The notes below the pieces were generated by a model. It was given only the letters and a program-made list of their open reading frames with translations, did no database searches and was not told the DNA's origin. 64,000 nucleotides of DNA from Raineyella sp. LH-20 (GTDB lineage: Bacteria; Actinomycetota; Actinomycetes; Propionibacteriales; Propionibacteriaceae): contig NZ_CP137003.1 of NCBI RefSeq assembly GCF_033110965.1, positions 558,001 through 622,000 of the forward strand, read 5' to 3'. Positions 8,440 to 57,639 of the stretch are shown piece by piece (within the stretch, counting starts at the first letter, position 1; every line of letters starts with the position of its first letter). The translations under genes and the position numbers were made by a program.

Positions 8440-8511
8440 CCAGACCGTACCCGTGGTGTCCATTCCGGTCCGGTCGCCCGGGAGGGAATGACGACGACGG
8501 GTACGGTCTGG
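8440..8511 (+). repeat. Dispersed palindromic element, copy A (short form)
   Basis: This 72-bp imperfect palindrome is bounded by the inverted pair CCAGACCGTACCCGT and ACGGGTACGGTCTGG, with an inner matching CATTCC/GGAATG pair. It shares outer arms, inner arms and the central CGGTCGCCCG motif with copies B (43381) and C (57413, inverted). Copy A lacks both the 19-bp tandem extension and the 230-bp tail of B and C. It begins 37 bp after the cbiX/sirC stop and may also end that transcript. Confidence 0.8.
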
Positions 8512-43153: not shown

Positions 43154-43170
43154 GCCCCGAAGAGATACCG

Positions 43171-43210
43171 GCTCTTCACCGCTCTTCACCGCTCTTCACC
43201 GCTCTTCACC
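43171..43210. repeat. 10-bp tandem repeat (four units)
   Basis: GCTCTTCACC is repeated four times without interruption and is followed by GAAGAG, which can pair with CTCTTC. It starts 17 bp after the trmL stop. The 10-bp period places repeats on one face of the helix. Confidence 0.85.
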
Positions 43211-43314
43211 GAAGAGGGTGGAGTCGGGGTCGGCATCCGCCAAGCGTTCGCTCGGGCAGGCCGCGGGCAGTCGTGACCCGCTGGGCCGGCTGGGCCGGGG
43301 GTGCGTCCGGGTGC

Positions 43315-43359
43315 CTGGGCGGGGGTGGCCTAGGCGGCGGTGGCCTGGGCGGGGGTGGC
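43315..43359. repeat. 15-bp G-rich tandem repeat (three units)
   Basis: The units CTGGGCGGGGGTGGC, CTAGGCGGCGGTGGC and CTGGGCGGGGGTGGC are consecutive. The G-runs could support a G-quadruplex on the plus strand. They lie 22 bp before dispersed element copy B. No gene is seen from 43154 to 43760. Confidence 0.8.
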
Positions 43360-43380
43360 CGGACCGGAGCCCTCGCCGTG

Positions 43381-43712
43381 CCAGACCGTACCCGTGGTGT
43401 GCATACCCTCCCGGTCGCCCGAGCGGGAATGAACACGAAGCGTACGGTCTGCTACGCGGCGTACGGTCTGCTACGCGGCGTACGGTCTGCGCCAGAAGAC
43501 GGGGCACTGCAGGCCTGGCCAGGACGCGAACGAGGGCGCGGTGAACCCGCCGGACGAGCGTACCGGGAACCGGCAGCGGAAACCCGCACCCCCTCCCCCT
43601 CGCCCACGCCCCTCCCACCCCACGGGATGACCGCCAGGACCACGACTGTCGACCGCAGCGATCCAGCAACGATCCTTCCTGCCGACACCACCCCACCACG
43701 GGTAGCCCCAAC
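43381..43712 (+). repeat. Dispersed palindromic element, copy B (long form)
   Basis: The 71-bp palindromic head (43381-43451) is bounded by CAGACCGTAC and GTACGGTCTG. It is followed by two 19-bp tandem units of the form CTACGCGGCGTACGGTCTG (to 43489), then a tail of about 220 bp. Head, 19-bp unit pattern and tail all align with copy C (57413-57070) in opposite orientation; copy A has only the head. No transposase or convincing ORF is visible. Confidence 0.8.
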
Positions 43713-43760
43713 CTCCGATGGGCCGGGATACCCCCGGGGGTAATGGGGTAGGCTGTGGCC

Positions 43761-44036: not shown

Positions 44037-44618
44037 TCACATGCGCAGTCTGATGACGAAGAGCAGGTAGCACAGGACCGGAAGCGCGACGACCGACAGC
44101 ACGGCGACGACCGTACGCACCCGGCCGAGGTTTCGCAGGATCACCCTGAGCAGGAGGAACAGCTGGATGCCGATGAACCCTCCCAGGCAGTTCAGGATGA
44201 CGTCGTCGATGTCCGACGCGCCCAGGGCGAACACGCCCTGGACGATCTCCACCGCCACGCTCGCCGAAGCGACGAAGAGCATGGTTCTCGCCCCCGTCGA
44301 CTTCGTCAGTGCAGACATCGACTTCGTCAGTGCAGACATCGACTTCGTCAGTGCAGACATCGACTTCGTCAGTGCAGACAAGGATGCGCCGAGGGGGATG
44401 AAGAGGAGGACGTTGCCTGCGATGTTGCCGAACGCGAACCTCCTCACGCCCGACGAACCGCTGAACAGGTAGTGCGAGATGCTCGCGAACGGGATGAGGT
44501 TGAACGATCGTTCCGTACCAAGCGGCCGCGAGAAGAGCAGAAGCTTCAGCGCGAACACGACGTAGAGGACGAACGCAGCACAGATGACGACGGTCTCGAG
44601 CCTCGCGCGCGTCGTCAT
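44037..44618 (-). CDS. VanZ-like membrane protein with internal tandem repeat
   Basis: This 193-residue protein has about four membrane helices. FALKLLLFSRPL, NLIPFASI, NIAGNVLLFIPLG and EIVQGVFALGASDIDDVILNCLGGFIG follow the VanZ pattern, whose members can confer low-level teicoplanin resistance but mostly lack known roles. Four copies of SALTKSM/T lie between helices 2 and 3. ATG 44618 is chosen; an upstream start at 44648 or 44792 is possible. Base composition is slightly less GC-rich than its neighbours, which hints at transfer. Confidence 0.78.
   Translation of the reverse strand: MTTRARLETVVICAAFVLYVVFALKLLLFSRPLGTERSFNLIPFASISHYLFSGSSGVRRFAFGNIAGNVLLFIPLGASLSALTKSMSALTKSMSALTKSMSALTKSTGARTMLFVASASVAVEIVQGVFALGASDIDDVILNCLGGFIGIQLFLLLRVILRNLGRVRTVVAVLSVVALPVLCYLLFVIRLRM
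44299..44382 (-). repeat. 21-bp tandem repeat inside the VanZ-like gene
   Basis: Four 21-bp units (GACTTCGTCAGTGCAGACATC on the plus strand; the last differs at its end) keep frame and encode SALTKSM repeats. Near-identity implies recent expansion. Confidence 0.9.
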
Positions 44619-44875
44619 GGGTCGCCCGTTCGACCGATCCCCGACCATCCCGGATACTGACTGCTCAGGCACTTCCCGAACGGTACGCGCCGAGCCTGGC
44701 ACGGGCAACGGGCCGCCGGAGGCGATCAATGGCCGCCGCCACACCAGCACCGAACGCGGAGCGTCCTGATCACCTGGGTCCGCCCGCACCAACAGCCCCC
44801 CCTCGGCCCGAGACGATCACCCCCATCACCCGATGGACCGGCCTCCCCCCGATCGGTACACCTAAGATCGACCCC

Positions 44876-45784
44876 ATGGGACACGACCACGACCACGGCG
44901 CCGCCCCTCAGCGCCGGTTGGTGGTGGCCCTGGCGATCACCGCGACGGTGCTGGTGGCCGAGGTGGTCGGTGCGGCGCTGACCCGCAGCCTGTCGCTGCT
45001 CACCGACGCCGCCCACATGCTCACCGACGTGGCCGGACTGACGATGGCGCTGGTCGCCGCCCGGCTGGCGATCCGACCGGCCGACGAGCGGCGCACCTGG
45101 GGGTTCCGGCGGGCCGAGGTGATCTCCGCCCAGTGGCAGGCCGCGATCCTGTTGGCGGTCGGGGTGTACGCGCTGATCGACGGCGTCCGGCGGCTGATGC
45201 AGCCACCGGACGTCCCGTCCGGCGCCCTGCTGGTCTTCGGCATCATCGGCCTGGCCGGCAACCTGGTGTCACTCGCCGTCCTGCTCAGCCACCGCGACGT
45301 CAACCTCAACCTCCGCGCGGCCTTCCTCGAGGTCGTCAACGACGCGCTCGGGTCGGTCGCGGTGATCGTCTCGGCGGTGCTGATCGGGACGCTCGGCTGG
45401 CTGCGCGCCGACGCGGTCGCCGCGATGGTGATCGCCGTGCTGATCATCCCCCGGACGCTGGTGCTGCTCCGCTTCTCGACCACGGTGCTGCTGGAGTCCA
45501 CGCCGAAGGGCCTCGACCTGACCGAGGTGCGCCGGCACCTGCTGGAGATCGACCAGGTCCTCGAGGTCCACGACCTGCACGCGAGCACGATCGCCACCGG
45601 CCTGCCGGTCCTCAGCGCCCACGTCATCGTCGAGGAGGAGTGCTTCCGCACCGGCACCGTCCCCGGGCTGCTGGACACCCTGCAGCGCTGCGTCGCCGAG
45701 CATTTCCCGGTGTCAGTGGCCCATTCGACGTTCCAGCTCGAGCCACCCCGGCACCGCGATCACGAGGACATGCCGGGCGTGTAG
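44876..45784 (+). CDS. Cation diffusion facilitator (CzcD-like metal exporter)
   Basis: This 302-residue CDF protein has a short His/Asp-rich N-terminus (GHDHDHG) and six membrane helices. SLSLLTDAAHMLTDVAGL (HxxxD in helix 2) and VNDALGSVAVIV (ND..G in helix 5) form the transport metal site. A C-terminal cytoplasmic domain follows. It likely exports Zn2+, Co2+ or Cd2+. ATG 44876 has no ribosome site but lies 7 bp after a -10-like TAAGAT, consistent with a leaderless mRNA. The cobalamin riboswitch follows at once. Confidence 0.9.
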   Translation: MGHDHDHGAAPQRRLVVALAITATVLVAEVVGAALTRSLSLLTDAAHMLTDVAGLTMALVAARLAIRPADERRTWGFRRAEVISAQWQAAILLAVGVYALIDGVRRLMQPPDVPSGALLVFGIIGLAGNLVSLAVLLSHRDVNLNLRAAFLEVVNDALGSVAVIVSAVLIGTLGWLRADAVAAMVIAVLIIPRTLVLLRFSTTVLLESTPKGLDLTEVRRHLLEIDQVLEVHDLHASTIATGLPVLSAHVIVEEECFRTGTVPGLLDTLQRCVAEHFPVSVAHSTFQLEPPRHRDHEDMPGV

Positions 45785-45913
45785 TCTGGCCTGGCAACAC
45801 GCGGAGCCCGAGGAAGCCGGTGAGATTCCGGCACGGTCGCGCCACTGTGAGTCCAAGTCAGGAACTCGGCCCGCGTACACCACGACTGGGACGCGCCATC
45901 CCGGAGAGGACAC
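45785..45913 (+). ncRNA. Cobalamin (B12) riboswitch
   Basis: The core reads GAGGAAGCCGGTGAGATTCC, then GGCACGGTCGCGCCACTGTG, then AAGTCAGGAACTCGG: the B12-box and surrounding conserved segments in the right order. A small hairpin GGGA-CGCGCCA-TCCC (45885-45905 region) carries GCGC in its loop, able to pair with the GCGC of the L5-like loop. It abuts the ribosome site GGAGAGG of the next ORF. Adenosylcobalamin binding should therefore hide that site. The downstream genes are a 24-codon ORF, cobT, cobS and cobD. Confidence 0.9.
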
Positions 45914-48933: not shown

Positions 48934-49050
48934 CGGGGACGGCGAGCCTCACGAGGACGGCGAGCACCGCGGCGGCCGGGCGGGTGCCCGCCTCGACGCG
49001 AGTACCCGGCACAGCCCGCAGCCGCCGCGCCTTCTGCCAGATGCGCGGGT

Positions 49051-49092
49051 TTCAGTCAGCCGCGGCCTGTCGGCGGGCCGCGGCTGACTGAA
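49051..49092. terminator. Strong hairpin downstream of cobD
   Basis: TTCAGTCAGCCGCGGCC (49051-49067) pairs perfectly with GGCCGCGGCTGACTGAA (49076-49092) around an 8-nt loop. It begins 118 bp after the cobD stop and is a likely transcription terminator for the cobalamin operon. Confidence 0.7.
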
Positions 49093-49134
49093 GCGGCGGC
49101 GTTTGCCTGAAAGCGCGGCGGATGCGCTCGGCAT

Positions 49135-49244
49135 CCCGACCCAACCAGACCAGCAGCCCGGCCCAACCAGACCAGCAGCCCGGCCCAACCAGACCAGCAG
49201 CCCGACCCAACCAGACCAGGGGCCCGATCCAACCAGACCAGCAG
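49135..49244. repeat. 22-bp tandem repeat (five units)
   Basis: The unit CCCGACCCAACCAGACCAGC(AG) is repeated five times with changes at two or three positions. The 22-bp length is not a multiple of three and there are no spacers, so it is neither coding nor CRISPR. Confidence 0.9.
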
Positions 49245-49334
49245 CCCGATCGGCCGGGCGCAGCCCGATCGCACCGAACGAGCGATCGATCCCGGCCGCA
49301 ACGCCCCGGGACCACCGTTGACTACCCTGATCGC

Positions 49335-56501: not shown

Positions 56502-57041
56502 ATGGGCGTACGCGAACAGGCACGGGCGGAGACGACGGCGCGGATCATGGCGGCGGCGCGCGACCAGATCGCCACCGTCGGCGGGGCCGGACTGTCGATG
56601 CGGGCGATCGCACGTGCGGTGGGCCTGGTCTCCTCGGCCGTCTACCGCTACTTCCCGACCCGTGACGCGCTGCTCACCGCGTTGATCATCGAGTCGTACG
56701 ACCACCTGGGTGACCACCTGGCCGGCCTGCCGGCCGACTGGCGGGCCCGGGCGACCGGCCTGCGGGACTGGGCGCGGGTGCACCCGCAGGAGTTCCACCT
56801 GATCTACGGCACGCCGATCCCGGACTACCGGGCGCCGCAGGACACCATCCCCGCGGCCGCGCGGGCGGTCGCGCCGTTCCTGGCGCTCGCGCCGATCGCG
56901 GCGACGGTGCCGGAACTGGCCCAGCTGGTCGGCTTCGTCGGGCTGGAACTCGCCGGCCACTTCGTCGGCAGCGAACCACCGGTCGAGGAGCTCTTCACCG
57001 CCGTGCTCGACCGCCAGGTCGCAACCCTCGGACTGGGGTGA
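56502..57041 (+). CDS. TetR-family transcriptional regulator
   Basis: This 179-residue repressor has an N-terminal helix-turn-helix, ARDQIATVGGAGLSMRAIARAVGLVSSAVYRYFPTRDALL (about residues 18-57), followed by a helical ligand-binding domain of the TetR_C WHG type (WARVHPQEFHLIYGTPIPDY). Two matching palindromes lie upstream. It probably represses itself and the divergent membrane-protein gene. ATG 56502 is preferred over GTG 56496. The ligand is unknown. Confidence 0.88.
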   Translation: MGVREQARAETTARIMAAARDQIATVGGAGLSMRAIARAVGLVSSAVYRYFPTRDALLTALIIESYDHLGDHLAGLPADWRARATGLRDWARVHPQEFHLIYGTPIPDYRAPQDTIPAAARAVAPFLALAPIAATVPELAQLVGFVGLELAGHFVGSEPPVEELFTAVLDRQVATLGLG

Positions 57042-57069
57042 CGCGGGACCGCGCACGGCTCCTCGTAGT

Positions 57070-57413
57070 CCGGGGTGAACCCGTGGTGGTCGTGTCGGCA
57101 CGACGGATCGTCGAGTCGCCGGCGTCGACAGTCGCCGTCCTGGTGGTCATCCGGTGCGTCGGGATGGGTGAGGGAGGAGGGTGCGCGGCTTTCCGCTGAT
57201 GGAGGTCCCGGCAACGCTCGTCCGGCGGGCTCACGCGCCCTCGTCCACGTCGCGGCCGAGCCCGCGGTGCCCCCGTCCCTCGGCTCGGACCGTACGCTTC
57301 GTTTCAGACCGTACGCTTCGTTTCAGACCGTACGCTTCGTTTCAGACCGTACGCTTCGTATTCATTCCCACTCGGGCGACCGGGAGGGTGTGCATACCAC
57401 GGGTACGGTCTGG
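57070..57413 (-). repeat. Dispersed palindromic element, copy C (long form, inverted)
   Basis: Read on the minus strand from 57413, the head CCAGACCGTACCCG...GTACGGTCTG is followed by three tandem 19-bp units AAACGAAGCGTACGGTCTG (the last ends GGTCC, 57287), then a tail homologous to that of copy B to about 57070. Alignment with B has small indels, several of three bases. The element lies just after tetR. Confidence 0.8.
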
Positions 57414-57486
57414 CAGGCGAGAGCTCCTGCCCGGCCCAGCGAGCGGGCTTCGCCGAGCTCGCCGCACGGCGGGCTGCGCGCGGCGC

Positions 57487-57626
57487 ATGACCTTCGGCCT
57501 CGGCTTCGGCTTCCACCCGGAAGCGCTCGCCGAGTTCGCCGCGGATGTCGACTCGTCGGCGACAACCTCATGACCATAGTGGCCGTCGGTCGCGAGAAGC
57601 GGCGCCCCGGTTACTGGCGAGACCGC
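57487..57626 (+). pseudogene. Decayed ParE/RelE-type toxin remnant
   Basis: An ORF of 28 codons begins MTFGLGFGFHPEALAEFAAD, like the N-terminus of ParE toxins, and then stops. Overlapping it in another frame is GDNLMTIVAVGREKRRPGYW followed by RDR, the typical ParE C-terminus (AVxHxRRxPGYW). About 50 central residues and the reading frame are lost. No intact antitoxin is seen. It lies between element copy C and the large membrane-protein gene. Confidence 0.6.
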
Positions 57627-57639
57627 ATCATCCGGCGGC

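Follow-up and report, generated by a model that had tools for sequence, protein, structure and literature searches.

Hairpin-forming repeats of the kind described here are usually credited to Y1 (RAYT) transposases. REPINs have been described as doublets of REP sequences that form hairpins, and sequencing reads from which such an element is precisely missing have been reported for them (PMC3116915). The GTAG/CGTC-tagged REPs are palindromes 20-40 bp long, one end of which bears an unpaired tag, the stems of the CGTC type being 8-9 bp long, and bacterial MITEs, for example RUP, NEMIS and ERIC, are non-coding elements of 70-300 bp with terminal inverted repeats of 15-30 bp (PMC3733652). Neither 'actinobacter' nor 'actinomyc' occurs in the main text of the latter paper, and literature searches over titles and the openings of abstracts gave no description of the repeat analysed here.

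The window is a stretch of 64,000 nucleotides (C1:558001-622000) from a high-GC bacterial genome that consists of a single contig of 3,632,335 bp. An earlier note on this DNA had reported three palindromic repeats lying outside genes and in both orientations. All three are present (copies A, B and C, Table 1), the third on the opposite strand, and a repeat search of the window assigns them to one family, B and C being 89% complementary over 111 nt. The note also held that the three heads share outer arms and an inner CAT..CC/GG..ATG pair; in copy C, however, GCAC stands in place of the CAT. With up to one mismatch, the terminal 10-mer CAGACCGTAC is found at 17 sites in the window; 100 shuffles gave 4.14 sites on average and at most 10.

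Table 1. Positions of the repeats and of the accompanying features (window coordinates unless otherwise indicated).
Feature	Position	Strand	Description
Copy A head	8441..8510	+	70 bp, without tail
Copy B head	43382..43451	+	70-bp near-palindrome, loop CGGTCGCCCG
Copy B tail	43452..43489	+	two additional copies of the 19-bp end repeat, composed of a 9-bp spacer and GTACGGTCTG
Copy C head	57343..57412	-	70 bp, opposite orientation
Copy C tail	57286..57342	-	three extra 19-bp end repeats, the outermost with one mismatch (CGGACCGTAC)
574-bp stretch with copy B	43154..43727		aligned gap of 6 bp in G002, 5 bp in G001 and 79 bp in G003 (G003 limits slightly different from those of the G002/G001 comparison)
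608-bp stretch with copy C	57032..57639		against 14 bp in G001
Subfamily 2 members	108710, 130478, 1808690, 1845927, 3359559		contig positions
Second palindrome family	49022-49121; L077:5863-5942; L078:11758-11835; L079:1263-1360; G002 L147:2538-2605		first position in the window, the last in G002

A covariance-model search of the whole genome, which the note had suggested, revealed many more copies. A model built from 17 heads (R1) recovered these heads and six further places, plus one weak match (E 0.41), and a wider model (R2), built from 22 heads of this genome and one copy from the congener G002, gave 46 matches corresponding to 23 places on both strands (150 of 4,642 first-look candidates scored). 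The exact 10-mer CAGACCGTAC occurs at 79 sites in the genome, and its reversed control at one; by hand count, 44 of the sites fall within repeats and 35 are solitary. The solitary sites are unremarkable, since 56 relatives carry from 0 to 32 such sites per genome. Eighteen of the 23 copies form subfamily 1, with the ends CAGACCGTAC...GTACGGTCTG showing a few single changes and the centre CGGTCGCCC in 17 of them. One member at contig position 2962569 is degenerate and 69 bp long, the other copies of the family measuring 70 bp. The remaining five copies (subfamily 2) have the ends CAGATGCACC...GGTGCATCTG with small variations. Pairwise identity within subfamily 1 has a median of 83% (range 74-97%; 17 copies, 2962569 excluded), and the median between the two subfamilies is 59%.

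In all 23 copies, 20-27 of the 27 arm positions form Watson-Crick pairs, and the palindrome of subfamily 2 is nearly complete, with 29-33 of 35 half-positions paired. The earlier note had argued that the arms of copy A pair although they differ from those of B and C, as a sign that structure is kept. This argument fails, because A and B both have 22 of 27 positions paired and C has 21, so that pairing in A is no special feature. Whole heads have a median predicted fold energy of -42 kcal/mol. Alignments around the heads of copies outside the tailed group have a median length of 71 columns and never exceed 88 (n=30, including short partial alignments from 24 columns), which makes the head the unit common to all. 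Its ends are sharp, because the matches extend little beyond the head, on otherwise unrelated flanks.

The family is similar to REPINs (PMC3116915) in its anatomy: a pair of conserved ends in inverted orientation gives one hairpin, which is extragenic and multicopy. None of the 23 copies overlaps a gene as called by a simple codon-usage gene caller. It differs from them in that single arms here barely fold alone (medians of -4.2 and -2.6 kcal/mol for the two arms), in that there are only 23 copies, and in that eight copies carry one-sided arrays of 19-bp half-sites. It also differs in that neither a Y1 match nor a consistent tag was found. No match to PF01797, which covers the Y1 transposases including RAYTs, was found in any of four genomes of the genus, in a search in which six of 14 controls matched, five of them above the cut-off; a search of the own genome alone likewise gave none, as against five of the 14 controls. 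GTAG/CTAC and CGTC/GACG occur at scattered positions, and many of the 23 copies lack them. The repeat is a small intergenic palindrome like the GTAG/CGTC-tagged REPs (PMC3733652), but its stems of 27-35 positions are longer and have no constant unpaired tag. It is therefore not filed as a true REP/REPIN, the Y1 transposase and the tag having both been looked for without success.

In length, terminal inverted repeats of 15-30 bp, non-coding nature and number of copies, the family resembles MITEs as defined in PMC3733652, although no insertion sequence with the exact ends was seen in this genome and no target-site duplication is evident. Exact 10-mer sites in the genome include no pair with the spacing of an insertion sequence other than the heads themselves; this search covers exact ends in this genome, and diverged ends or other strains could differ. 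Apart from the heads, BLAST of copy B against the own genome, with 40 of 70 candidates scored, returned matches that were all short and weak. The flanks, judged by eye, show no constant target-site duplication; the copy at 1603202 has an ambiguous overlap of 4-5 bp. IS110, the only other transposase family searched for, has two copies in the genome. Insertion of IS110 into the repeats was considered and dismissed, the flanks of both copies being, by eye, without such a repeat.

The flanks of copies B and C are related to each other, though diverged (75% over 371 aligned columns between -25 and about +330 of the head), and the two copies thus are not mutually independent; A aligns with either of them over 72 columns only. 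The flank-sharing group consists of the tailed copies 601382 (B), 615343 (C), 1320512, 1693038, 1802671 and 3403674 and the untailed copy 513991, and the common sequence extends at most from about -240 to +330 of the head, not over the whole span in every pair. The left flank of 1693038 is the 3' end of a gene for a 244-residue protein, a recognisable piece of which lies at 513991 and which recurs partly, as DNA similarity, at 1320512 and 601382. This gene, whose product presumably resembles AbiEi/DUF559-type proteins, was considered as a mobiliser; since it has no Pfam match and tblastn gave nothing else convincing in 48 stretches of the own genome, it is probably a passenger. The origin of all copies in one recent segmental duplication, against which the note had wanted the repeat checked, does not hold, but seven copies do share flanks. 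Passive spread by ectopic recombination, segmental duplication and replication slippage, without a dedicated enzyme, would account for these seven, some of which include the 3' end of one gene, and it agrees with the abundance of tandem repeats around heads and with the large amount of extra sequence in this genome compared with its congeners. The other lineages, however, share the head only, and matches between them run no more than some 20 bp past its ends. This pattern is not explained by duplication of flanking DNA, and passive spread is considered distinctly unlikely as the origin of the family.

Eight of the 18 copies of subfamily 1 carry one to three clear extra end modules with a period of 18-19, in every case 3' of the head on the strand that reads CGGTCGCCCG. 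Six of these tailed copies share flanks and hence have one origin, while 228116 and 234541 look separate, so that the bias in tail side amounts to about three events. One copy of subfamily 2, 130478, has a 19-bp tail, the side of which is not assignable because the centre is nearly symmetric. Arrays of other periods touch or adjoin heads on either side, with 27 bp after 1075817, 25 bp before 1045835 and 36 bp before 3612670. The last two contain CGTACG-like motifs, and an array with a 22-bp period is found beside the head at 1802671.

The repeat has a narrow distribution. At E <=0.01, R1 matched four of 196 genomes, namely the own genome, G002, G148 and G185; R2 at 0.001 matched two of 198 family genomes, the own genome and G002, both multi-genome searches being run with stricter filters that lose weak matches. 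The matches in G148 and G185 (E 6.6e-5 and 0.002) were rejected as members, because their ends and spacing differ by eye. G002 has two divergent copies, at 1037465 and 3096496, elsewhere than the copies of this genome, and R2 found no member in G001 or G003, with nothing better than E 0.09. A strict repeat pattern, which reaches only 13 of the 23 own copies, had no occurrence in broad collections of genome contigs and viral contigs, from which close relatives may be absent, and copy B matched nothing among plasmids and phages.

Both flanks of 11 of the 23 copies can be aligned in at least one of G001-G003, and none of these 11 places is occupied in the relatives; neither G002 copy falls in the gaps orthologous to them. 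Of the two G002 copies, the one at 1037465 is some 2.5 kb away from the orthologous place of 3612670 (beside hypF), in a different gap. The cleanest locus is 1603202, where homology to G002 ends 2 bp before the head and restarts 49 bp after it. The 121 extra bp thus consist of 2 bp, the head and 49 bp that resemble, by eye, a degenerate tail. Around copy C the gap aligned with G002 is wide (1,640 bp here against 108), and at the place of copy A the relatives have longer and different DNA (802 bp in G002 and 3,387 in G001, against 223-230 here). At most loci exact insertion limits cannot be set, because the intergenic DNA is too diverged. The extra length is not specific to the repeat, since the own genome is more than 60 bp longer than a relative in 39 of 62 gap comparisons without a head as well as in 15 of 23 with one; lineage-specific extra DNA being common here, empty places alone are no proof of insertion of the repeat. 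In G003, the 79-bp gap at the place of copy B holds one exact lone GTACGGTCTG within a small inverted repeat; it could be a remnant or chance. Only 10 such 10-mer sites occur in that genome. Near copy B, the window segment 43961-44820 is 860 bp long, whereas the corresponding gap in G002 has 20 bp (930 and 9 bp by the limits of G001); it holds about four repeats of a 21-bp unit near 44297-44380.

Several findings support the earlier note in its suggestion of a REP-like element or non-autonomous mobile unit: the same ends recur in 23 dispersed copies, flanks are unrelated between lineages, the sites are intergenic and all 11 alignable loci in relatives are empty. The family is probably a non-autonomous, REPIN/MITE-like hairpin mobile element that spread in this lineage by means of a putative enzyme.

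The same note had also offered a structured RNA. In the window, an Rfam cmscan at gathering scores gave four tRNAs and a cobalamin riboswitch only, and no match for the repeat. The riboswitch match (45771-45887, plus strand, 38.3 bits) is next to the end of a cation efflux gene (44729-45784). Within subfamily 1 (17 copies) the arms pair at 85.4%, against 84.5% with shuffled partners (61 of 500 shuffles reach the observed value), pairing of an arm with its own partner is scarcely superior to pairing with that of another copy (22.3 against 21.8 of 27 positions), and the covariation score is equalled in 53 of 500 shuffles. Cells changed on both sides stand out somewhat (11 against 6.4 in shuffles; 20 of 500). 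When both subfamilies and the G002 copy are taken together, such cells number 56 against a shuffled mean of 20, a value that none of 500 shuffles reaches, as is also the case for the covariation score; two of the five measures are non-significant in this set, both-side-changed pairs (48 of 500) and further pair types (152 of 500). Between the subfamilies the stem is preserved and the two ends change in concert, on the basis of few independent events; inside subfamily 1, covariation is weak at most. The concerted change is equally compatible with DNA or RNA and does not distinguish between them, and template-switch correction inside the palindrome could be another source of it.

Transcription into an RNA hairpin acting as a terminator or as a stabiliser of mRNA 3' ends would fit the stable predicted folds. 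The 23 gaps with a head comprise 8 convergent, 3 divergent and 12 co-directional ones, and 68 headless gaps of at least 100 bp comprise 10, 29 and 29, respectively, so that divergent gaps are fewer and convergent gaps more frequent at heads, the latter without significance (Fisher p = 0.065). Against such a role, only one of the 23 copies is followed, on either strand, by a run of at least four T in the first 20 bases beyond the stem, and the loop strand of subfamily 1 shows no preference, matching five and opposing four of nine co-directional gene settings by hand count (6:4 with copy A, which is excluded since the gene to its right is a tRNA of the opposite strand). Beside the copy at 108710 there is a separate terminator-like hairpin, which is kept in G001 and G002, both without the repeat at that place. 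Together with the weak covariation of subfamily 1, these observations make such a primary role very unlikely, although the repeat may act as a terminator or stabiliser as a secondary function. The structured RNA of the note is accordingly unsupported, and its interpretation as a whole is partly supported.

Another interpretation is that the repeat is a dispersed protein-binding site, a chromosome-organising or regulatory operator with inverted 19-bp half-sites in which extra direct half-sites strengthen binding. In subfamily 1 there is almost no variation in the outer 10 bp, whereas mismatches are frequent in columns 11-13 and 18-20, and the 19-bp module does occur in direct arrays, both of which agree with binding by a protein. 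A conserved centre of 9-10 bp, however, is not needed for such a site, and with no members in G001 and G003 and two divergent ones in G002 the turnover is fast for a conserved chromosome system. The scanned neighbours have no evident common function: a Pfam scan of a subset, 38 neighbour proteins (four without family) and nine window ORFs (five without family), gave mixed functions including S-adenosylmethionine synthetase, ammonium transporter, HypF, aldehyde dehydrogenase, chaperonin and regulators, among others, which rules out a link to one gene function among the scanned neighbours. A binding site is thus regarded as unlikely.

As a mobile element, the family would work with a unit of 70 bp, a quasi-palindrome in which a short conserved centre lies between two inverted end modules of about 19-27 bp; as single-stranded DNA, this unit is predicted to form one long hairpin. 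A trans-acting enzyme would recognise either the pair of inverted ends or the hairpin that replication exposes, excise or copy the unit at its sharp ends and insert it into gene-free sequence. If recognition requires matching ends, both ends would change together as a new subfamily arises. The 19-bp end module would sometimes be duplicated in tandem on one side and then be carried along by later copies.

A second, unrelated palindrome family of about 80-100 bp, with a core resembling TTTCAGTCAGC.GCGGCC...GGCCGC.GCTGACTGAA, occurs several times in this genome and at least once in G002 (Table 1). Its copy in the window is adjoined by a 22-bp tandem array at 49109-49270 with about five units of the CCAACCAGACCAGCAGCCCG type. 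A bolder proposal, and a rather doubtful one, is that the repeat analysed here is a REPIN-like replicator without a Y1 transposase, moved by a new, putative trans-acting enzyme of the genus that recognises long DNA hairpins and could serve several palindrome families. A clear hairpin family in a genus without a Y1 match is a place to look for another mobiliser, and the question of mobility is testable through comparison of strains. For intergenic hairpins in this genome, a riboregulator should not be the default reading.
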